Shown here in pieces: positions 1 to 13,058 of a stretch of 64,000 nt of DNA. The notes beneath the pieces were generated by a model that worked only from the letters and a program-made list of their open reading frames with translations, had not been told where the DNA came from and made no database searches. Source of the DNA: Crocinitomicaceae bacterium. GTDB taxonomy: Bacteria; Bacteroidota; Bacteroidia; Flavobacteriales_D; Crocinitomicaceae. The translations under genes were made by a program, and so were the position numbers. Where the stretch lies: the NCBI GenBank assembly GCA_018402525.1, contig JAGYIR010000019.1:1-64000 (forward strand). The letters run 5' to 3'. Every line of letters starts with the position of its first letter. Position 1 is the stretch's first letter.

Positions 1-339
1 TTTTTGGTGTTTCCTGTTGCTTGCCTTAAACAACAACCAACTTATTGGAGAAAGAAACACCATCTCTAAATTCAATTCACCACATTTCATTTTATAATCA
101 TTCAATCATTTTTCATTGCATTATGCTCTGAATGTAAACAAAATGCATAGCATAAGGAATAGAACGTCCATTTTCTTCCAAATTTCTGATACATAATAAG
201 TAATAACTATGAGGTTTTAGAGGTGTACTTTCATTAATTTCTAAATGATCATTAAAACATTTTCTGCTTAAAGGAAGGTATAATGCCAAAATCACATTGA
301 ACTTCAATTATCATTGTGTAAAAAATGTAGGTTGTGCTG
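1..339. other. Left edge of island, no recognised gene
   Basis: AT-rich sequence left of the last recognisable methyltransferase fragment. An open frame of 64 codons on the minus strand (113 to 307) gives a peptide I do not recognise. Recognisable similarity of the neighbouring HsdM fragment stops near position 340, before its NPPF/Y motif, so the gene is either truncated here or too disrupted to follow. The island probably continues beyond the window start. Confidence 0.4.
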
Positions 340-1085
340 TGTGTCTATATACTATAAGTAAAACTCTCAATACTTACATAAAACATGTTCATATGTGCAA
401 TGGCAGTTATAGAGGCATTTCTTCTAATTGTATAATTTGAGTGTGTGGCCTTTCCTTCTCTTTAGATGTAGGGCACAATTCAAAGAAAACCACCTGGAAC
501 CACAGGTTGGGTCGTACACACTTTCACCAGGTTGTGGATCCATGATCATGGTCATGAGTTTTAAGCAACGGTTCGGTTGGTGTAGAATTCAGCTGCGGTA
601 TGTCCGCTGTCGTCTGCAAATTCTTTAATGAGGTATTCGTATGATTTCCGGAGTTTATCATCCGAAATGTTACTCAACGTGAGTTTGTGTTCAGAGTAAT
701 GTTCAATAAGATTGGTGAGTGTTTCACTCAAACGGTTTTTATTGGTCCAGGATGCATCACCAAAAATTCCATACAAGGTGTCTGGGTTTGCTTTTTCATT
801 AGCGCGCATAGCATCTGGGTGAAGCACACCCATTCACTGTTGTTTCGCGCGGGGTTGATTAACTCCAATGAGCTCCTTTGGGTACAATAAAATGGTGGTG
901 TTCCGCAAATGCAGTATATTCCATATCTCCGTCGCTTTCAGTGCTTTTCAAACTCTTCATCGTACACATCACAAATGCGTTTAAAGAACAAGAGCGGGAA
1001 GATGTACTGTTTGTAATCTCCTGCGTCAATACTCCAATGCAATTGGGTAGCTGTTCCCTCAGAGGACAAGTTGTTTTTGGGTCAT
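340..1085 (-). pseudogene. HsdM-like type I DNA methyltransferase, second copy, N-terminal part, frame-broken
   Basis: Joined across frames on the minus strand this reads as the N-terminal half of a type I restriction-modification methyltransferase subunit (N6-adenine, SAM-dependent). The start ATG at 1085 lies just after the stop of the DUF262 gene. Recognisable in order are the N-terminal segment with SIDAGDYK and FPLLFFKRICDVYDEEF, then KLTLSNISDDKLRKSYEYLI, then DDSGHTAAEFYTNR (one open frame over 561 to 833), and the SAM-binding motif I as DPTCGS with GG displaced by an extra base near 490. Nothing after motif I is recognisable. It is homologous to the copy at 2917-4379 but is a separate gene. 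Frame breaks are frequent; whether they are real or consensus errors is discussed in the findings. Confidence 0.72.
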
Positions 1086-1086
1086 G

Positions 1087-2917
1087 TCAGTCCGCATCAA
1101 TACTAATTACTCCTACTTTGACATTCAAAATTTGCATCAACTTTCCTTTAAGCGTTAAACGTCTCGCTTCGTAAAACTCTATGAAATCATTAAATTCCAG
1201 TGATGCCTGTGTGTTTATACAGATTTTGAACCAAGAAAGATTCCCGATTTGCCTGAATTTCAAATTCTTCATTAATCCAAACTTTTAAAGTGTTTGTCTT
1301 TCTTTCAATGTTAACAGTAGTCTGTAGCAATTGAAGATTGGCCAAGCGATTAAAACTGATTAATATATATTCTTACTTACATTATCATCTTCAATACCTA
1401 AAGTGCACCTAATTTACGTTTATTAAAAAATGATTTTGGGATGAATATGATCTTGGTGGTATTTAAACGAGAAAGTTAACTCCGAATATAGCAACGTTAA
1501 TGACTATATGTTCTTTTAGAGCCATATTGCATATCCAAAATGCTATTTATATCCTCAGAAAATGATATAGTTTTCCGCTTACCCTATAATGTTCAATTAT
1601 TTCATGAAGTGGGAAACGACCAGTATTTGATTTATTAAATTTTCTATTACAGGATATATTCCATCTGGGTGTACTCCGTGCAATTCTCCAGTAACACCCT
1701 AGCAAGCCATTCCATCATTGATTTCCTGTCATTATCAGCAGAAGATGAGTGTGTAAATTTTATCATCTAAGCCACTTTTTGTAAATGTAGTAGGTAAGGT
1801 GTATAACTGCGTTGGTAGCAATCAGACTGTATCGATTATAGTCCATACTTTGCCAATAACTCAACTGAGATCTGTATTGCTTGAAGCTATGTCTTCCCAG
1901 TTCTTTCAATAGTACTATGTTTTCCTGGGTGAAGTTATCAGACCTTTAAATTTACTATCACTAAAGTTCTAGCCAATACTTTAAAACATGATTTCCTCTC
2001 AAAACAAACTCTTGTTAAAAATCAAACCTAGCCACTTCAATTTTTATTATGATTTCATCAAACACAACCTCATGTATAACTCCTCTCTTGCATCCTTTTT
2101 CCTTCCATTCTGCAGTTGTGATAGAAAGTAACAAATCGTGATTAACCCTAGCTTCTGTTCCAGCCATCACTATTGGGTTCTGATAAATATTTGAAGTACT
2201 TTGTCTAATTCTTTCACTTTCCTCAAGAAAGAAGCTGATAGGTTTTCTTCTTGATGTATTACATTGAAAGTGCCTGATCAATTCGGGGTCCACGTAAACT
2301 CTGATTGTCCTTAGTGGCAGCATCCTTCTGAAGCATCCATCTAGCTCGTTTAGCCATCAGGTGTCCCATCACCTTTGGTGCCACATCTCTCCAGCAATCT
2401 GGCACTTTCGCCAGCACTCAAACCAAAATCTGTTTCTTGTATTTATAGCCTCCTCTTGATCAAAAATCTGAAATCAAACTCGAGTTCAAATATCATCCGC
2501 TTTCTCAAAATAAATAAAAGTTTCTTCTTAGGAAAGCATGAGGACTCGACCAAGAATAATAAGGTATTTTTTTATAAAGTGTTCCGGTTAATGCTATATA
2601 CAATGATGTCATTCTTTTGTTGTCCATCTAAAATGGCTATAACATCCTCTTCTGACTTAAACTATTTTTGAATTAAGTGTTTAGCGTTTTTTCATGGTAA
2701 TGCTTCAAGAATTCATAAAATTGAAAATCTTTAATCTGATTTCATCTACTTTCCAAAATAAGAATGTACTTATTGATAATCCCTCAACAAGGAGTCAAAA
2801 GCCTCTCGATTTGATTTGGATCCTGCATAAATTCTCTTTGAATTGAAGGCAAGACATATGCTTCTTTCTGATATTATCTATCGCCTTCTTGATTGTAATA
2901 GGTGCTTCATATGCCAT
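1087..2917 (-). pseudogene. DUF262/DUF1524 GmrSD-like nuclease, frame-broken
   Basis: The minus strand, read across frame breaks, gives a protein of about 600 residues typical of DUF262-DUF1524 proteins. It starts MAYEAPITIKKAIDNI at 2917. The NTP-binding DUF262 motif DGQQ followed by a shifted R-M-T-S-L-Y lies near 2,630. A long helical middle part follows, with a DLLLSI-TAEWKEK segment in the 2015-2323 frame. A DUF1524-type HNH motif reading YHQDHIHPK lies near 1,430, and the C-terminal FYEARR-type tail is at 1087-1272. Known relatives (GmrSD, BrxU) are NTP-dependent nucleases often directed against modified phage DNA. The start overlaps the stop of the upstream HsdM as TAATG, and the stop is followed at once by the second HsdM. 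Target and activity are inference. Confidence 0.75.
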
Positions 2918-4379
2918 TATATAAACTCTTTAGTATTGTTTTAAACTTCTCCTCCGCTTTCAAACTTTCCTTCCACGTATTTTCAAATCAGCTAATGCTT
3001 CTTCACTGAAGAAATTGTCTTCAATAATTTTTCCACATAAAGCGGAATATTCAAGTTGTAATCGTTTTCTTTCAAATCTTTTGAGAAGCTACTTACATAA
3101 TTCTCTACATCCCCATATACACACGCCTTAAACCAATCAAGTATTTGATTCACATGTTCAGGTTCTAATAAGTTTTGTGCCTTCCCACGCGCAATTTGGT
3201 CCGATGCATCGATAAATAGCACTTTATTCTTTTCTTATTGGCTTCTTTTTCTTTTAAAACCATTACACAAGCGGCTAATTGTGTTCCGTAGAAAATATTT
3301 GGACCGAGACCTATAAACCGCTCGAGCATGTCTGCCTTCAATAACGCTTCAATGAATTCTTCCTTCAGCTCCTTTCTGAATAAAGCACCATGGGGTAAAC
3401 TCATACGGGCCCGAGGCATTCATAGATTTAATCATGTGTTGCACCCATGCCATGTCACCATTTCCTTGCTGGTGGAACTCCTGCAATATTTCTTCCGTAC
3501 GGATCATTCGCCCAATTTTCGGCTCCCATTCTTTTAATGAAATGGAGGGTTTAGCAATTACACAATCGAATGTTTTTAGACCATCCGCTTCAAAAAATGC
3601 TGGATTTCGAAGTGTATCGCCACGCACAATTGAAAAATCTTCAATTCCATGCAAAAACATGTTCATTCGTGCGATTGAGCTGGAAGTCAAGTTTTTCCTG
3701 CCCAAAGAGCTTCAGAGTGCGGTAATCTTCTCTTGTTATGTTTCAAGTGATCAACACACTCAAGAAGCATTCCTCCAGTTCCACATGCAGGATCGTAGAT
3801 TGTTTCTCCTTCATGGGGATCAAGAATTAATCCTGGGGTAAATGAACAACAGAGCGAGGAGTATAAAATTCACCTGCTTTATTATTAATCAGTGAAGTGT
3901 TTGATAAGGTATTCATAAGTGACTCTAATAAATCTGACCGACATTGTTATTAGGACAAATCATATTGTGAGAAATGTTCTACAAGATCAATGAGCAACGG
4001 GATCTGAAAGTTTGTTTTTATTACTCCATTGTGCGTCACCAAATATTCCGTACAAAACTCTTGATTGGCTTGTTCTATCTCCAGAAGGGTTTTTCAATCG
4101 TTAATCCCACATTTGATGTGGTTTCACGAACATCTTCCAATGGCAATCTTTGGAATAACAAAACGGTGGAATTCAGGAAGCATCTGCATAATCTTCATCA
4201 CCTTCAGATTCTTCTAAAGCAATTCTAAATTCTTCATCATACACGTCTGATATTCTTTAAAGAACAACAAAGGGAAGATATATACTTAAAATCTGAAGCA
4301 TCAACAGGTCCTTTAAAAATCCAAAGGGCTTTTGATAAGTATTGTTCTAATTGGGATAATGTTGCTTTGTCTTTTGCAT
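2917..4379 (-). pseudogene. HsdM-like type I DNA methyltransferase, first copy, frame-broken
   Basis: Full-length HsdM pattern (about 490 residues) on the minus strand, spread over several frames. It shows the N-terminal LSQLEQYLSKALWIFKGPVD segment, SAM motif I as DPACGTGGML near 3,800, an ARMNMFLHGIEDFSIVRGDT segment, and the catalytic motif IV region near 3,540. As written motif IV reads KPSI, but shortening an A run by one and lengthening a T run by one restores NPPF followed by SLKEW. Downstream are LPHGALFRKE and the C-terminal helices. The start ATG at 4379 overlaps the end of the XRE gene, and the stop overlaps the DUF262 start. No HsdS or HsdR is visible in the window. Confidence 0.78.
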
Positions 4380-4563
4380 TCTCTTTGTTCGATATAATAA
4401 GTGTTTTAATGTCGATTAACATTTCGGCTATTGTATAAAGGTTCTAGTGACGGCTGCCTTCTGTTTTGGACATAACTATTCACCATATTATAACTCTTAC
4501 CCAACCTCTGCCAACCACACTTGTTTTATCCTTTCGTTTAGTACTTCTTTAATTCCTATTCAT
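4380..4563 (-). pseudogene. XRE-family helix-turn-helix regulator, frame-broken
   Basis: Minus-strand reading from ATG at 4563 gives a small protein of about 62 residues resembling an XRE/HTH_3 regulator. After removing one extra A near 4,551 it begins MNRIKEVLNER; further on it shows KSYNMVNSYVQNRRQPSLE, the recognition-helix signature of this family, then LYNIAEML and IKTLIISNKE. It lies directly upstream of hsdM, as controller genes of restriction-modification loci often do, and its end overlaps the hsdM start. A role in controlling the downstream hsdM-DUF262-hsdM genes is inferred from position only. Confidence 0.68.
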
Positions 4564-4815
4564 TTTCAGAAATAATTGTGGCTGAAATTAATAAACCAAT
4601 TAGTATATCTCACGAAATGTGATGTTTTTTCTCTAATTCAATGGGCCTCATATTGGTTTTTTCAACAAATAATGATTGTTAGATGAACAATTAAAATTGC
4701 CATTTCAAAACAAATTAATATAGATCAAAACAAATACAAATTAAACCGTAACACATTGATTTACTTGGTTTTGAAATTGGCCATACTCAATCTGCATTTG
4801 ATATAAATTAAATAT
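4564..4815. other. Divergent intergenic region between XRE operon and plus-strand cargo
   Basis: No coding potential recognised on either strand. It is very AT-rich and lies between the minus-strand XRE-hsdM block and the plus-strand block starting at 4816, so it should hold both promoters and any operator of the XRE protein. I found no convincing operator palindrome by eye. Confidence 0.35.
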
Positions 4816-5170
4816 ATGAAAAACAGATTGACCCATATTCAGGTGAAACTTTTTATCCAAAAGAAGTAATCAAAGGTTTGCCACAAGGAATAATCAAATT
4901 GCGTATAACAATGCAATGGCAAGAAAGAATAGAGAAAAGTCAAAAAAAATTGACGGCCAAATAAGGAAAAATTGCATTCTCAATGAGGTACTGCACAACA
5001 AATCCACCGTTACGAAAACCAAAGACTATTTACTTGGGTCAAGGTTACGACTTTCGCTTCTTCAATAACAGCAGAGTGGCCAATGGAAATTCCACAGGTA
5101 TGATGACACGGGAATTAGACTTATTAGTAACGGTTTATACGAAATAATAAAATTTAAAGACAATGAATAA
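4816..5170 (+). pseudogene. Small DPYSGE-motif protein of Bacteroidetes mobile elements, frame-broken
   Basis: Plus-strand frames joined give about 118 residues. It begins KQIDPYSGETFYP, changes frame within a run of A, continues KRSNQRFATRNNQIAYNNAM with KNREK, then a lysine-rich stretch, TVTKTKDYLLGQGYDFRFFN, and ends ISNGLYEIIKFKDNE. I recognise the DPY-GE-F, NQ-FA and LLG-GY pattern from small hypothetical proteins of Bacteroidetes mobile elements, but I know of no assigned function. The start of the next gene (ATG at 5163) overlaps its stop, suggesting translational coupling with the two genes downstream. Confidence 0.5.
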
Positions 5171-5439
5171 TTTTTAGAAATAGAGAGATACTGGAGGTGG
5201 TGCCGGAATCCAGTAAAAATCGTTAATCTGATTACCAAGTCAGTTCAAGCAGTTGCAAAAGCAGTGTCTGATCGCGGTACCCAATTCCTACTGCCATCCC
5301 CACGAAAGTATCTGGAAAACAAATGGTATGATTATTGGGGTCAGTGATTATATTAGGTGCAGGATTTATTATATACAAAAGTAAAAAAGATGAAAGTATT
5401 AATACTGCAACTGACCATAAACTCTGGCCGTTCAAATGA
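5163..5439 (+). pseudogene. Small membrane protein upstream of ATP-grasp gene, frame-broken
   Basis: Joined frames give about 91 residues. The N-terminal part is rich in Trp and Arg (ERYWRW), followed by VKIVNLITKSVQAVAKAVSD, the segment PSPRKYLENKWYDYWG, and one predicted membrane helix near SVIILGAGFIIYKSKK. Two frame breaks each sit in a homopolymer run (T near 5,172 and G near 5,338) and vanish if the run is one base longer. The stop TGA overlaps the next start as ATGA at 5436. Family unknown. Tight coupling to the ATP-grasp gene makes it a candidate partner or substrate of that enzyme, which is inference. Confidence 0.45.
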
Positions 5440-6262
5440 TGGCTAAGACCCTAGTCCGAGAATCAATAGATTTTGACATATTGAACCCTACACAATTATT
5501 TCTTTTGATTTCAAACCATGAAAATGGAAGAAATCACCATTTGATGATTACTCTGGTAGAACGATACGAAAAGTAGACTTAAAAATTACAATGTAGTGAT
5601 CCCAAGATTCGGTAAAGAAGTTGATTTCTTGCGAAGTTCTCAATATTTGGAGCGTGTTTTTAAAATGAAGACCATTCAATCATCAGAAGCGGAATTTCCA
5701 ATGCATACAGCAAGATTCGCACGGCCATATTGCTTCGTGCAAATGGAATTCGGACACCAAAGACAATGTATATCATAGTGCTTCTGAAATGTCGATTTGG
5801 TATTAAATAAACTTCTAAAGAAGAAAAGTATGTAATCAAATTAGACAAAGGAAGTAAGTGGAAGGCAAGTCTCAATCGTTTCAGGTATTGCAGAAATGGA
5901 AAAACTGTATTGGATACTATCGGCTCCATGAGTCAACAATTAATAATTCAAGAGTTTATAGAATCCAAAGGCACAGATAGTTAGGGGCAATTGTAGTTGG
6001 AGGAGAAGTTATTGCAGCTCATCAACGTAAATCTGGAGCAAATGAACTTAGAACAAATATTTCTACTGGAGGCGAAGGTGTAAAATCAAACTCGGAAGAG
6101 GAAATCGATTTTTGCGTGCGTTGCGCTGAAGCCATTGAACTAGATGTTGCCGGCGTTGATATTATGAAAACAGACAACGGTAATTATTACTGCATCGAGG
6201 TAAATCATTGTCCGGGCATGAATGTTCAAAAATTCACCTCAGTGAACATCAATCAAAAATAA
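5436..6262 (+). pseudogene. RimK-like ATP-grasp ligase, frame-broken
   Basis: About 275 residues when frames are joined. It begins with an N-terminal segment containing RESIDFDILNPTQL, then NVVIPRFGKEVDF, a SKIRTAILLRANGIRTPKTM segment typical of the ATP-grasp central region, and KYVIKLDKGSK (phosphate-binding lysine region). A clean open C-terminal stretch (5992 to 6262) contains VVGGEVIAAHQRK, ANELRTNISTGG, AGVDIM and the metal-binding CIEVNHCPGM. This matches the RimK/LysX class, which joins an amino group to a carboxylate using ATP, for example adding glutamate to ribosomal protein S6 or to peptides. Start choice: ATG at 5436 overlaps the previous stop as ATGA. The substrate cannot be read from sequence. 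Confidence 0.72.
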
Positions 6263-6268
6263 TTCATT

Positions 6269-6499
6269 TTGCTTGGAAAAAGCCAAAAACCTGCAGTTGA
6301 CAATTATTCTAGCGATGAAATAAAGAACTGTAAAGTGTTTAATCACACCTTCAACGATGATGCCTTTAATAAATTATACGAAACGCTTAAGGGAAAGGTT
6401 GTTGAGACTAAACTATCTGGGACTCAAACTATGATTTTAACGAAGTCAGATCTTCAACGGTTGCCAGTTGCCCAGCTGGTTATAACTAATTTAAATTAA
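6269..6499 (+). CDS. Small hypothetical protein after ATP-grasp gene
   Basis: An open frame of 76 codons, starting with TTG and lying 6 bases after the ATP-grasp stop. It has no signal peptide or membrane segment and contains FNDDAFNKLYETLKGKV and ILTKSDLQRLPVAQLVITN. I do not recognise the family. As one of the few unbroken frames in the island with sensible amino acid composition, and in line with the plus-strand cargo genes, it may be real, but chance is possible. Confidence 0.35.
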   Translation: MLGKSQKPAVDNYSSDEIKNCKVFNHTFNDDAFNKLYETLKGKVVETKLSGTQTMILTKSDLQRLPVAQLVITNLN

Positions 6500-6559
6500 T
6501 CTAGATATATTCGAATTCATGTGGAACCTTAACACCACAAGGACCAGTTGATCCGTTAT

Positions 6560-7463
6560 TTACTCTTCACTGCTTGTTGTTGAGCCTCCAGCATTGTCTT
6601 GAGCATGATTGAATAAATCAGCAATATCACTAACTTTACGATCCATCGCTATCGTCTGATTCATTACATAGCTGGAAATTAGAAGTGCAAGTGTGTTTAG
6701 CTGTTTTTCCAACTTTGTATTTTTAACCGTCCAGTCTTCATATGCATCGTTATCTGGGAATACAATGACGTTCCTTCCTCTTAAAGAACGAACCATTTTA
6801 AGCAAATTGCTGCTGGTTATTCGTTGCTAACCATAAGAATTCTTGGTGTAATACAAGCGCCCACTATGGCTGTTTTTCTGCTTCGACAATAAGACAAACA
6901 ATTTTATCCGGATACTTAAGCAATAAATGTTCCCCGAAAAAGAACTTGTTGTAGGTTGAATTTTTAGTACATTATGAACCCACTTTATTTTCAAACCTTG
7001 ATTCTAGGTCTTTTTACCATTTGTGGAATTAATTAGTTGAATTTTCCCTGTTCTTATTGCCCCCATGTAAAATCAACTTGCCAAAACACAGAAGACCCTC
7101 CCCATTCATTCGAGGTGCCCACATAGTACTTCTGAAAGTCTCCTCAAGAAACTTGGCATCGTTAAACTTGCTTAAATACTTGAAATAACTGTTCTTGTTG
7201 TAGCCTTTAAGCGACTCCTTCATTATCTTCTTATCAATGAATGATATCGGAAGTACGGGAGGGGAAATTACCTCCTTCCTATGCAGGCCCACCTTTTTGA
7301 GGGGCGATTCGTGACCACAGGAATTAAGACGGTCACACTACCAAATATGGGCTCTAATAAATTTCCTTCGTGGTCGATAAAACGTGCAAAACGTCTTTTT
7401 GCTCCGGCATATAGGGCACTTTATTTTGAATTTACCAGGAGCAAATTTATACCATGAGTTCAT
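6560..7463 (-). pseudogene. DUF6371-type primase-like protein of mobile elements, frame-broken
   Basis: About 300 residues on the minus strand when frames are joined. The N-terminus (ATG at 7463) holds a CHC-like zinc-binding pattern, with CPIC near 7,415 and CGHE near 7,312. Further on come PPVLPISFIDKKIMKESLKG, a YFKYLSKF segment, LFGEHLLLKYPDKIVCLIVEAEK-type Toprim-like sequence, a shifted LWLATNN segment and finally GRNVIVFPDNDAYEDWTVK in the 6560-6805 frame. I recognise this order from DUF6371 proteins in Bacteroidetes integrative elements. The C-terminal core resembles a Toprim fold, which suggests DNA primase or replication work. It follows the helicase gene on the same strand. Confidence 0.62.
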
Positions 7464-7522
7464 ACGTTTCGAATTAATAATTAAGGGAAACACCCAAATG
7501 GGTACCCCCAATTGTATGTACC

Positions 7523-8950
7523 TTAATTGCTAACTTTAAAAACTTTTTTACTCCCCTTGAGTAGTTGACGAAAACGAGATCGTTTTGGCTCCTTTGGAGA
7601 GTGACGTATTTTCTCAATTTATTGCTGGAAATAATGTTAGTGTGAACCTCTCATTGTCCGTTTCATAAAGGCTTTGAAACTTCTCAACAGTCCTGGTGTT
7701 GTAATCTGTGTCATCTTTGAGCCCTGTAAGTATAATCACAAAGGTCTTCCCTATTATTTGTCTTTGTCTATTTTCAATTACGTTTATGGATCGGGACTGG
7801 TACTAGTCCTTTGTCAAGGTATAATTGTACGCAGTCTATCATAAACAATAAAAACCTGTTCCATTCTTCCGCTGCCCATTCATCTGTAAAGAACCTACAA
7901 CTGTAAAATAAAACGATTATTCTTCAATTCCAGAACCACTTTTGAGGAATAATAGTCTGACAGTTCAATAATAAACACAGCCTCTTTCTGTAGTACCCTG
8001 TACAGTCAAGTATTGAGATAGGGAGAAGAAATCAATATTTTATGTGAATCTTGAGCTGGAACATTGAATCCTTGAATTTTCTCAACATTAAATCCATCTG
8101 TAGAAATAGAGTTGAATCTGATCAATTTCCATATTTTTACCTAACGTCATCAAGCCAAAGAATTCTTGTGGCCACTGTTATATCCTGAAAATCACCAAAA
8201 CCGTTATCACTGAATTTCCTTGCCGTCCATTTTGACCGTGCATCGTGAAGTGCTAACGCGTTAGCGATAAGTCCTTTCTCCTGTCCCACCTTTTGTGGGA
8301 TTATCCAAATCTGAAACATTCATCATGGTAAGCGCGAATCATTTGCCCTCCAGATTTGCGATGAAAAGAGTGTAATAGGTAACCAAGCGCCGTTCGTAGA
8401 GCAAGTATTCGTTTTTCATCATTTCTACAAACGTTATTAACGAACGTTGAAAATTACACCGTAATCCTTTCACCTATTTCAAAGTTTATAACATTCCTTC
8501 CAAACCAACCCCTTCAAAATGAGTGTGAAAGTCACTTTGATTACTTCCTTTGAGTCGACTTCTGATAATCTGTTGTCGAAGAACAAAAGCCTTTCTTGCT
8601 TGTAATCTTAATATCGGTAAGTCATCCTGGAACTAAAAACTCCAAAAATTATCGTTTGGTACGATGTTCGTTTGACGATAAAACAATTCAATTTGGGCTT
8701 CCAAAATATCTCTATGGCCTCGTCTATTTGAACACGAAGTTCAGGTAATTGATGCAAATACGCGTTAATGAGGTCTTTTATTTCCTTGAGGGAAATTTCA
8801 GTAATAATGTTATATTCTTTCCTTATAAGGATGGAAGATTCATATTCTTTATAAACAAATTCCCATGTGCTCCAATGGTTTAACAATGTATTTGTATTAA
8901 TCCTGTTAAATGAATGTATTCAAACCCCCTTGTTCGTTTTCTACCGTAAC
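7523..8950 (-). pseudogene. DUF5906-type helicase (D5/primase-associated), frame-broken
   Basis: Minus-strand frames joined give roughly 450 residues resembling DUF5906 helicases. In order: EISLKEIKDLINAYLHQLP (8608-8886 frame), a RILALRTALGYLLHSF segment near 8,370, a Walker A region that reads GGTGKGLIANALA once one extra base is removed, an ITVATRILWLDDVR segment with a Walker B-like acidic end, FFTDEWAAEEWNRF with LFMIDCVQLYLDKGLVPVP, and the C-terminal NDLVFVNYSRGVKK. This class supplies SF3-like ATPase activity for replication of plasmids, phages and satellites. The upstream limit is uncertain by about 100 bases. It pairs with the DUF6371 protein and integrase as a replication and integration module. 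Confidence 0.66.
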
Positions 8951-10385
8951 AAAGAAAATATCAATCCCATATTTTTTATTTCCAAGATCATGAATTTCAA
9001 CTAAAATGCCCAGATATTTTTCTCTTTTTTTTGAACGCGCGCAAGATTTCAGAAACGAGTGCATTTTTCTTTTTCATTTCTTTTCTTTGCTCGTCAATAA
9101 ATAAATTCGCTATCATTTCAGATGTTGTGGGTCTCCAGCCTTCATCCACCTGTCAGTTCTTCTCTTGAAAATGTCAATGTCATTCCTGCTGAAATTACGG
9201 GGTTAGCTTCCTCTCTCTCTGGTAGTAAACTCTCTTTCTTTTGAAGTAAATCGTGCTCCCTTTATAGCTGAAAGTTAGAGCGTTGCCTCATCCATAAAAA
9301 GATGATTATCTGCTGTTCTACTTCCAATGGTTTCTGGAGTTTGTAGTGACATAGCTGGCTGATCCACGGAGACTGCCTTGTTTACTCCTTTGGAATTCTT
9401 CCACTGTGGCAGGAAAGTGGTCTTTCTTTTGTCTCCTTGGTATAATGACTAGTTTGTTTTAATAGGAACAATTTGACATTATAAAATGATAAATGTGAAC
9501 CGGATTTCCAGCCACTTCGTTGGAAATCGGTTCATTTTTTTGATAAAATTTTCTTCTTTACGCGAGTTTGATATTTCCCCAAAAGAACCACCATTACATG
9601 AGCTCTGTGTCTATCAAACTCTTCCCTGGGAGATAACATTTCTCTCTATCCTAGGCAAACCAATCTCCATATGAGAGGAAATATTCCACAAAAAACTCAG
9701 ATTCCTTTTGATATCAGGGGCAGAGCCAAATAAAAATATGAGAAAACTCCCTCGCATTCTTCAAATTCTCCTAGATGTTTCCCTCCTTGTAGCAATCTTT
9801 GCAACGTCTATCTCCATTAGTTTTTCAACGAGGTCGATTATTTCACCTGCGGGTAACTCCCGCATCCATTTACCTTGAACATGTATCTCTTCACCATGAT
9901 ATAAATTGTCAAAATATTTATGTAGAATATTGCTCTCTTTATCTTTTCCATGTTGTACTGGGACAAAATAATCTATAATTGTGCATGAAACAGTCTCTTT
10001 GTTTCTGAGATGTTTGATGACGCAAACAGAAAAGATTTTCATCACAAAGAGCAGCCCCTTGACTTCTCTTAATCGAATTAATTCTTCCGTGATATTGTCT
10101 ATTATGTGGAACCATTTAGTTGATTACACTACCAAACTGTATTCGTTTAGCTTTTTGCACAAGTATTCATCATCCAGGAAACAACACTACTGATTGTATA
10201 ATTGAATAAATTGAGTAATATATTTTAATATTCTTTTCTATCTCATCTCCAATGTCCAAAAGTGGTTTAAACTTCCTATTTAATAATTCAAACCTTGCTT
10301 TCTTCGGCCTCATTTGTAAGTCTTTGATATTCTTTAACTACTCTTCATTATCCGCTTTAATAATCTGCTCGACAGTCTCCTCGTT
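8951..10385. other. Island interior, no recognised gene
   Basis: Between helicase and integrase. The longest unbroken stretch is 94 codons on the minus strand (9761 to 10045), with a segment reading HGEEIHVQGKWMRELPAGEI; I do not recognise it. A second minus-strand frame near 9,130 to 8,950 is lysine-rich (FIDEQRKEMKKKNALVSEIL). By position one or two accessory genes of the element probably lie here, but no function can be supported. Confidence 0.35.
9496..9540 (+). terminator. Hairpin followed by T run inside island
   Basis: The arm gaaccggatttcca (9496-9509 region) pairs with tggaaatcggttc (9521-9533) across a loop of about ten bases with one bulged base, and a run of seven T follows. This is the shape of a Rho-independent terminator read on the plus strand, although no plus-strand gene is recognised upstream. 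It could also be a protein-binding or element-specific inverted repeat. Confidence 0.45.
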
Positions 10386-11532
10386 CTATTGATTCCATGA
10401 GCTCCCCACTGAATAGATTAATTTATTTCTACTTAGGGAAATAGCGTTACTTGCATCAATCTTTTATCATCAATAATTTTTACCATGGTGTAGACCTGAG
10501 TTGTTTTGAGTTCTCTGTGTCCAACAATTTTGAAACGGTAGATATCAGTCGCCATTCGTTAATTGTAAAGTTGTGTCAAGTGTGTCTTGCGCAACGAAAT
10601 GTAATATTTTGGAAATTCCAGTTTCACTGTATCCATTGCTGTGTAATTTACGTTGTGCCAGGTAATCATACTTTAACCCTTTAAAATCCTTTCTGTCGGC
10701 TGCTTAATTCTCACCAAGCAACCTACGAGCCTGATCGGAAATGGTAGTGTGTCTCAACACCTTTTGTTTTTTGCTGTCTGAAACGAATAAGCCAATGGTT
10801 CTGTTTGAGAGTATTGCAAAAATCATCACAAAGATTATGCTTATATCCGATTAGGGCAGATTCTGTCAAGTAAAGCAAACAAAACGCCAAGCTTTCATTT
10901 GTGGTATTTCACGCTTGCAAACCTTTGCAACTCTTCAAAAGTTAAAATTCCTCGAGTTTTACCTCCTTAAACTCTGAACTGAATCACAGATCTTCTTTAG
11001 TCGGTCTTTTTCCGAGGCAAGGCGTTGTTTTAGACAGGCTTTACTTTATTAAAAACAGAGCTGTAATGAGTTCTGAGATATAAACCCAATTTTTCGTTTT
11101 AGCTATATATTGTAAGTAATATTTAAAGTCTTTAAACTTCATTTTGGGTCTATTTTGTTAATTGGGAATTCCATCAGGACAGAATTTTCTAGGTATTTGT
11201 GTACGCTCATCCCAGTTTCCATAGTTATTGGTACTTCATATCGGATGTCCGTTTGTTCACGAAAATAAGAAATGAAATCGATTTTTGATTTGTCTTTATT
11301 ATGACTAGAAAGATCGTTGTTATCAATAACAAGCTCTATGGTCATTTTAGACCTGATTTTCTCAGCTGCATCCATTGTCTCCTTATTGCCTTTTCTGAGT
11401 GGTTGTTGGGTTTTCGCATAAAAGAGATCAAGTGTTCTGTTCGTGCGCTTCTTTGGGCGTTTGATTGTAAATATCTAAGAATAGCCTGATCTGTCCATCC
11501 TTTGTTTATGTCACGTAATTTTTAATAGTCAT
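10386..11532 (-). pseudogene. Tyrosine recombinase (integrase), frame-broken
   Basis: About 382 residues when frames are joined, the usual length of Bacteroidetes tyrosine integrases with a SAM-like N-terminal domain. The start is MTIK at 11532. An open stretch (11139-11375) covers the core-binding domain. Downstream are EFLTFEEL and FRQQKTKGVETHYH. Box II reads RCARHT where family members have HCARHT, so the first catalytic histidine is changed by one base. Then comes VSKLLDTE, which becomes LLGHRELKTTQVYT with one more G, leaving the nucleophile tyrosine in VYT. It lies 167 bases from the 3' end of mnmE and reads away from it, as expected for an integrase beside its attachment site. Confidence 0.75.
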
Positions 11533-11699
11533 GGTTGTGTTTTTTGTGTTAAACGGTGTGTCACGATCAAATATAATAATAAATTTATATCAAAAAGCAC
11601 ACAATAACACAAAAATATTTACATGACAAATTATACCTCCACCGAAACACCTTAAAATCAATGGTACTTTGTTATAGTTTGATTTCCATTTTGATATAA
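11533..11699. other. Junction between integrase and mnmE 3' end
   Basis: AT-rich stretch of 167 bases without coding potential. It should contain the integrase promoter and the element-side arm sites of the attachment region. Several ACACAA and TGTGTT-like words occur but no clear direct-repeat arm array is visible by eye. Confidence 0.35.
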
Positions 11700-11717
11700 T
11701 TACTTCCCAATACAAAA
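11700..11717 (-). other. Putative attachment core at mnmE 3' end
   Basis: The last 18 bases of mnmE (minus strand TTTTGTATTGGGAAGTAA) encode the conserved FCIGK end. From memory, the Salmonella genomic island 1 family integrates at the last 18 bases of trmE/mnmE with a nearly identical core. An integrase gene lies immediately beyond. A second copy marking the far end of the element is not visible within the window, so the left junction is probably upstream of position 1. Confidence 0.5.
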
Positions 11718-13058
11718 CTTGCTAAAGATATTCCCCAATAAGTCATCGGTAGAAATATCACCTGTAATACTTCCGAGGTAAAACATGGCTTGGCGGATGT
11801 CCATGGCAACGAAATCGCCTGTGATGCCTGTTTCCAATCCGTCTTTTGCTTTTTGTAGTGATGCTGCCGTGTTTATGAGTGCTTCGTGGTGGCGCGCATT
11901 CGAAACGATGGTGTCGTTGGCAAGGTCAAAATCGCCAGTTACAGCGTCCACCAACCATTTTTTTAGTGCATCGATATTTTGTCCTTGCTTTGCGCTAATT
12001 TGTAAAGCGACTGTTGCATTTTCAGTTGTAGCGATGTCCATTTTGTTGAGCACAGCGACGATTCTTTTTGAAGGATAAGTGACCTTCAACTCTTCTACCC
12101 ATTGGTTGACGGTCGCCACGCTTTCAGGGCTCGAGCCGTCTGCGAGACAAAGCACCAAGCTTGCTTGATTAATTTTTTCTTTTGAACGTTCAATGCCCAG
12201 TGCTTCAATTTCTTCTGCTCCTTCTCGAATTCCTGCAGTGTCAATCAAGCGAAAGAGAATTCCTTCGATGTTCAGTGTTTCTTCAATGACGTCGCGTGTG
12301 GTTCCTGCGATGTCGCTCACGATTGCTCTATTTTCTCCTAACAATTGATTCAAGAGTGTGCTTTTTCCAGTATTCGGTGCGCCGACAATCGCCACAGGAA
12401 CACCGTTTTTAATCGCGTTTCCAAGTTCAAAAGATGCCGCCATTCGCTCAATGTAGGCCAACACTTCTGTCACTAAGGCTTTTAATTCACCACGATCGGC
12501 AAATTCCACATCTTCCTCAGCAAAATCAAGTTCCAATTCTACCAACGACGCAAAATGAATCAGCTTTTCACGCAGGTCTCTCAACTCAGAAGAAAAGTTT
12601 CCACGCAATTGTTTCAAGGCGATATCGTGCGCGCTACGTGATTGCGAAGCGATTAAATCTGCCACTGCCTCTGCTTGTGACAAATCAAGCTTTCCATTTA
12701 GAAAAGCTCTCTGGGTAAATTCACCTGGGTTCGCCAAACGAGCTCCTTCAGCAATCAGCGCTTCAACTATTTTTCCGAGAATGAACGCCGAACCGTGACA
12801 GGAAATTTCAACACTTTCTTCTCCAGTGTAACTCTTTTCATGGGCAAACAACGTGACCAATACCTCATCCAACAATTCTTCATTGCGGTTGCTTATGGTT
12901 CCAAAATGCACCGTGTGCGATAATTTTCCCTTCAATGGTTTTGAAAAAAGCGCTTCGGTAATCTCCCAGGATTTAGGTCCCGAAAGACGAATAACACCGA
13001 TTGCGCCTACACCGTTGGGTGTCGCTAAAGCACATATTGTATCTTGATTGTTCATCAT
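11700..13058 (-). CDS. mnmE: tRNA modification GTPase MnmE
   Basis: 452 residues, the usual length. MnmE works with MnmG on the wobble uridine (U34) of certain tRNAs, adding a carboxymethylaminomethyl group in a GTP-, FAD- and folate-dependent reaction in the cytoplasm. The N-terminal folate-binding domain begins DTICALATPNGVGAIGVIR. The inserted G domain shows G1 GAPNTGKS (226-233), G2 DIAGTTRD (249-256), DTAG (273-276) and NKMD (338-341). The C-terminus ends FCIGK, including the catalytic cysteine. The gene starts ATGATG, so it may begin one codon later. Its partner gene mnmG is at 27036-28907. The gene is intact although the island adjoins its 3' end. Confidence 0.97.
   Translation of the reverse strand: MMNNQDTICALATPNGVGAIGVIRLSGPKSWEITEALFSKPLKGKLSHTVHFGTISNRNEELLDEVLVTLFAHEKSYTGEESVEISCHGSAFILGKIVEALIAEGARLANPGEFTQRAFLNGKLDLSQAEAVADLIASQSRSAHDIALKQLRGNFSSELRDLREKLIHFASLVELELDFAEEDVEFADRGELKALVTEVLAYIERMAASFELGNAIKNGVPVAIVGAPNTGKSTLLNQLLGENRAIVSDIAGTTRDVIEETLNIEGILFRLIDTAGIREGAEEIEALGIERSKEKINQASLVLCLADGSSPESVATVNQWVEELKVTYPSKRIVAVLNKMDIATTENATVALQISAKQGQNIDALKKWLVDAVTGDFDLANDTIVSNARHHEALINTAASLQKAKDGLETGITGDFVAMDIRQAMFYLGSITGDISTDDLLGNIFSKFCIGK

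Follow-up and report, generated by a model that had tools for sequence, protein, structure and literature searches.

The first 11,532 bases of the 64,000-nucleotide stretch of Crocinitomicaceae DNA analysed here (hereafter the window) are, with high confidence, the mnmE-side part of a mobile island contained in a low-depth, unpolished consensus, the interruption of its genes being an artefact and not true decay. What is observed is a contig end, an indel excess that is even across unrelated genes, codons in the hsdM genes that keep their third-position bias, a loss of frames that is unique in the 2.385 Mb examined, and relatives with open frames; from such features of the sequence we infer both the sequencing technology and the low depth. 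These observations, together with indels that appear to be about as frequent as substitutions, support the unpolished or low-coverage consensus that the first-pass annotation had put forward as one of two readings, the other being a slippage-driven decay. The sequence would probably derive from a single noisy long read, or a few of them, at the beginning of contig C15, its genes carrying about 1.3 frameshifting errors per 100 bp along with in-frame gaps and some substitutions. That the error begins at the island edge would be explained most readily if the island is present in only some of the sampled cells, so that few reads enter it.

Gene content of the island and its junction with mnmE

Outward from mnmE the island carries an integrase gene, a DUF5906 relative, a DUF6371/zinc-ribbon gene, an ATP-grasp piece, a DPYSGE-motif gene, hsdM2, a HEC-05-type gene and hsdM1 (Table 1). 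Direct Pfam scans of the window recognised only N6_Mtase, HsdM_N, DUF6371, a weak zinc ribbon and RimK, and the names integrase, DUF5906 and HEC-05 were taken from relatives. The HEC-05-type gene has no direct Pfam match in the window and owes its family to a relative, a 597-aa gene (HEC-05 by PADLOC) that lies between two hsdM genes of locus L072, while the 120-aa L076 relative of the DPYSGE-motif protein has no Pfam or PADLOC family. All seven genes that were aligned have relatives with open frames.

Table 1. Features of bases 1 to 13,058 of the window
Feature	Coordinates	Strand	Evidence
Contig start, not a continuation of hsdM1	1..283	.	DNA matches to relatives start at 285
hsdM1, first 274 codons by relatives, broken	284..1085	-	9 shifts in 802 bp against the L074 relative; HsdM_N piece by Pfam
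HEC-05-type gene (DUF262 gene of the first-pass annotation), broken	1090..2917	-	30 shifts in 1,828 bp, one reference only
hsdM2, type I methyltransferase, broken	2913..4377	-	N6_Mtase in two frames; 19-21 shifts against each of five relatives
DPYSGE-motif protein, relative of a 120-aa L076 protein, broken	4821..5167	+	3 shifts in 347 bp
RimK-like ATP-grasp piece	5981..6259	+	Pfam PF08443, E 5.9e-16
DUF6371 / zinc-ribbon protein, broken	6536..7463	-	DUF6371 in three frames; 7 shifts in 928 bp
Relative of 523-524-aa DUF5906 proteins, broken	7522..9077	-	20 shifts in 1,556 bp; DUF5906 seen in relatives
Tyrosine integrase, broken	10434..11502	-	17 shifts in 1,069 bp; named from the L077 relative with Pfam Phage_integrase
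Interval holding the island edge and the switch from broken to clean sequence	11503..11702	.	Last shifts; mnmE open from its stop
mnmE, intact, 452 aa	11700..13058	-	Stop codon 11,700-11,702

The order hsdM, HEC-05-type gene, hsdM is the same as in the type I restriction-modification cluster of L072, whereas the cluster of the window is cut by the contig start within hsdM1 and is without visible hsdS or hsdR. Paired hsdM genes enclose a variable gene in the relatives, which is of the HEC-05 type in L072, GmrSD_N in L053, a 219-aa gene without a name in L073, and nothing in L074 and L075; in L053, DarT and macro-domain genes stand ahead of hsdR. For the contig start itself (1-283) no match was found in the relatives' DNA, and bases 1-300 score 42-59 against the C-terminal part of hsdM1, compared to shuffle maxima of 34-38, over a stretch that overlaps the aligned part by a few codons. 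These first 283 bases are possibly a chimeric or poor read end.

At the other side of the island, the integrase gene lies directly beside the 3' end of mnmE, as is expected of an mnmE/trmE island, and mnmE extends without a break to its stop codon at 11,700; its best four matches (72-74% identity) come from metagenome assemblies labelled Flavobacteriales, Fluviicola and Crocinitomicaceae, so that the host is probably an environmental bacterium of this group. Two integrase references place the last shift at 11,457 or 11,463, and a third, which is longer, places it at 11,590; the island edge and the error edge agree within about 250 bp. According to the accessible text of PMC8409611, the 3' end of trmE is where islands of the SGI1 type insert in Gammaproteobacteria, and the two cases are alike in the tyrosine integrase gene that adjoins the 3' end of mnmE; unlike SGI1 as described there, the island of the window has a host from another phylum, other cargo and no attachment repeat that could be found. 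Among the papers listed by a literature search for mnmE-targeting elements in Bacteroidota, none was on that subject, judged by title.

Related integrases stand downstream of mnmE, on the same strand and 175-1,670 bases away, in 18 of 89 other mnmE loci, including those of Pedobacter, Mucilaginibacter, Aquimarina and Winogradskyella (e.g. L119, L143, L156, L171 and L181). The 89 loci were picked by mnmE similarity alone and have at least 1 kb downstream, with flanks of at most 6 kb and often 1.5 kb, and some of them may be one genome present in two collections. Judged from these sequences, the 3' side of mnmE is a recurrent integrase insertion site in Bacteroidota, comparable to that of SGI1 in Gammaproteobacteria. 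No convincing attachment repeats were found in 24 loci with limited flank, the window's own locus included. The gene usually downstream of mnmE was considered as a marker of the other end of the island and set aside, since the downstream order is not conserved in the compared loci.

These loci bear on the possibility that a noisy read of other DNA was falsely joined beside mnmE and that the island lies elsewhere, a reading which is compatible with sequencing error as the cause of the breaks and which concerns the junction. It is favoured by the position of the site at a contig end, by bases 1-283 not continuing hsdM1, and by the assembly holding no second copy of the 17-base pattern of the mnmE 3' end, whose one match is mnmE itself, the contig starting inside the island. 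However, the integrases found behind mnmE in the 18 loci and a related hsdM cluster that lies directly behind mnmE in L073 indicate that the junction is as expected for an island at mnmE, and we consider a false join unlikely.

Extent, density and context of the breaks

The longest stop-to-stop frame has 153 codons in bases 1-11,532 compared to 1,306 codons in the rest of the window, which is mostly covered by long frames; the near-absence of long frames that the first-pass annotation had reported for the former is borne out, and the latter agrees in the main with its description of a part free of such breaks. Base 1 of the window is the first base of contig C15 (70,998 bases), one of 19 contigs of a 3.157-Mb assembly with an estimated completeness of 98.3%. 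In the 2.385 Mb of this assembly that were examined, bases 1-11,702 of the window form the longest run without a frame of 155 codons, a threshold set after 153 codons were known to be the longest frame; the scan included the window, counted about 17 kb twice and covered about three quarters of the assembly. The next frame-poor stretches in the same 2.385 Mb are 4,555 bases at the start of C3, which are mostly an rRNA operon, 2,814 bases at the start of C18 and 2,538 bases inside C6.

Two further observations concern other contig ends. The start of C18 (L019, 1-2814) shows scattered matches to C7 at 329-330 kb and to other genomes as well as a SymE-like piece, and at the start of C5, another frame-poor contig end, no Pfam family was found; these results speak neither for nor against noise at the two starts. 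The first 20 kb of C4 (L006) have a G+C content of 0.547 compared to about 0.39 in most stretches of the assembly, and may be foreign DNA or have been binned wrongly.

Using protein-to-DNA alignments that allow frameshifts, we compared seven genes with their relatives and counted 107 frameshifts over 7,995 aligned bp; a base is missing in 55 of them and extra in 52. The same alignments contain 74 in-frame gaps and 19 stops in frame, and 8 of these stops lie more than 5 codons from any shift or gap. The density per gene is 0.75-1.64 shifts per 100 bp and is homogeneous over the seven genes (chi-square, p 0.53), and in hsdM2 five relatives place the 19-21 shifts at nearly identical sites. Controls in which intact proteins were compared with intact relatives gave no shifts in 8 of 10 cases, the remaining two having 1 shift and 1 stop, and 3 shifts and 1 stop; the control with 3 shifts is a poor match of two interposed genes.

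The breaks named in the first-pass annotation are real but far commoner than the handful that it listed, and its description of motifs broken at particular homopolymers stands in part. MNRIKEVL, HPKSFF, DGQQRMTSLY and LLGHRELKTTQVYT are whole in no frame of the sequence, and pieces lie near the places it gave in differing frames: DGQQ at 2,617-2,628 in frame -1 and RMTSLY at 2,598-2,615 in frame -2, KSFF at 1,425-1,436 in frame -2, the GHRELKTTQVYT pieces of the integrase at 10,487-10,522 in frame -3, and DPYSGE at 4,830-4,847 in frame +3. NPPF, however, which it had also counted as broken, is intact in one frame (3,540-3,551, frame -2).

The same annotation had taken the breaks to be mainly slips in homopolymers, which our data do not confirm. 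The two hsdM genes contain 26 one-base events, of which 14 lie in no run, as do 109 of 203 simulated events placed uniformly, and runs of four or more bases hold 4 of the 26 compared to 16 of the 203. Six homopolymer tests around the 107 shifts yielded one mildly positive result, for base-missing shifts near runs of at least 4 (23 of 55 compared to 16.0 expected, p 0.03); base-extra shifts near such runs numbered 15 of 52 with 15.1 expected. Long A/T runs are scarce in the broken sequence: runs of at least 6 number 9 in six genes, where the relatives, some of them richer in AT, would lead one to expect 32.3, and they occur at 1.3 per kb in the broken part compared to 3.0 per kb in the clean remainder of the window. 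As few long A/T runs are found in 30 of 220 overlapping windows of the same genome, and in 1 of 23 below 37.5% GC. This scarcity fits some compression of runs by a noisy method, with most errors lying elsewhere. For the homopolymer concentration described for a well-covered nanopore consensus (PMC9262707) the signs are mixed, the one-base events being placed about as at random, one of six tests being mildly positive and long A/T runs being scarce.

Codon constraint between the breaks

In unbroken stretches of 232-253 codons per reference, hsdM2 of the window differs from three references at 0.15-0.21, 0.07-0.12 and 0.46-0.53 of codon positions one, two and three, respectively, compared to 0.12-0.17, 0.07-0.09 and 0.47-0.56 for intact pairs (the close pair L072/L074 omitted). 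For hsdM1 (145-150 codons) the values are 0.12-0.17, 0.09 and 0.44-0.61 in the window and 0.07-0.11, 0.02-0.06 and 0.46-0.62 in intact pairs, with amino-acid identities of 0.80-0.84 and 0.90-0.97 (close pair omitted), respectively. In the hsdM genes the window therefore differs by a few percent more than the intact pairs at the first two codon positions, except for hsdM2 against L053, yet the third-position bias is kept, and constraint persists in the hsdM codons that separate the breaks. In the DUF5906, integrase and DUF6371 genes this bias is weak in the window and in controls alike, and most comparisons show some excess difference in the window. The compared codons of the window contain 2 stops in hsdM2, none in hsdM1, and 1, 1-2 and 2 in the other three genes; those of the controls contain none.

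We simulated damage by placing 30 indel events in an intact relative of hsdM2 at several indel:substitution ratios, with 16 runs per ratio, and asked which runs reached the values observed for hsdM2 (at most 2 stops, an amino-acid identity of at least 0.791 and about 19 shifts). None of the 16 runs did so at each of the ratios 0.18, 0.36 and 0.5, while 4 of 16 did at a ratio of 1.0 and 8 of 16 at 2.0, and a smaller series with 28 events agrees. The simulation takes the distance between the undamaged gene and the reference to equal that of L053, a premise which the similar third-position distances support. Together with the homogeneous density of shifts over the seven genes, this result shows the pattern expected of consensus error, in which indels are about as frequent as substitutions regardless of the gene.

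Genuine decay, in which a dead island gathers indels through ordinary mutation or through polymerase slippage in a mutator, has to be weighed against these data. Such decay would also let the broken stretch stop at the island edge, as it does within about 250 bp, and it could account for some extra substitutions and for the 8 stops away from shifts. However, ordinary pseudogene decay should produce several-fold more substitutions than indels and a loss of codon constraint, neither of which is seen, in the hsdM genes for the constraint and in the hsdM2 simulation for the ratio. The ratio suggested by that simulation is above the 0.10-0.36 that we obtained by dividing table values for bacterial mutation accumulation in six of seven bacteria (PMC4978911); the text of that source that was accessible gives indel rates as 1.8-11.9% of substitution rates. 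Slippage in a mutator should place indels mostly in homopolymers, and mismatch-repair-deficient strains indeed gain or lose mostly single homopolymer bases, as stated in the accessible part of PMC6954433. Since about half of the one-base events here lie in no homopolymer, and the codons between the breaks are constrained, the slippage-driven decay suggested in the first-pass annotation is not supported, and we regard genuine decay of either kind as very improbable. A further reading is a real mutational process specific to the island, making indels about as frequent as substitutions, blind to homopolymers, stopping within about 250 bp of the edge and leaving the neighbouring chromosome untouched, and to this we give almost no credence.

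Probable long-read error and its consequences for annotation

No clean version nearly identical to the island turned up in 40 genomes or in a 399-genome sample of the order, each set including the window's own genome, and the long DNA matches of the island in other genomes are 67-75% identical. A search of plasmids with bases 1-8,000 gave no clean copy (66% identity over 13% of the query, and short pieces), and a search of phages with bases 3,600-11,532 gave no match. Indel-broken frames are described for low-coverage long-read assemblies in the accessible parts of PMC9426551, PMC8103633 and PMC9262707, and the window resembles such metagenome assemblies in that small indels break the frames while protein similarity persists. 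It differs from them, as far as those sources describe them, in that the errors are confined to one contig end and island in the part examined, and in that homopolymers hold just about half of the one-base events. Consensus indels of long-read assemblies lie in homopolymers according to the portion of PMC9262707 available to us, and the events outside homopolymers fit raw-read-like error better than the well-covered consensus of that report.

As biology, the broken island is of little weight and offers no novelty. As a matter of quality control it is of more consequence: annotation would present the island as a group of pseudogenes or overlook the restriction-modification genes in it, and neither the rest of the contig nor the completeness value of the assembly gives warning of the error-laden segment. 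Such segments would be caught by testing whether reading frames stay intact along each contig, with particular attention to its ends and to the edges of islands.
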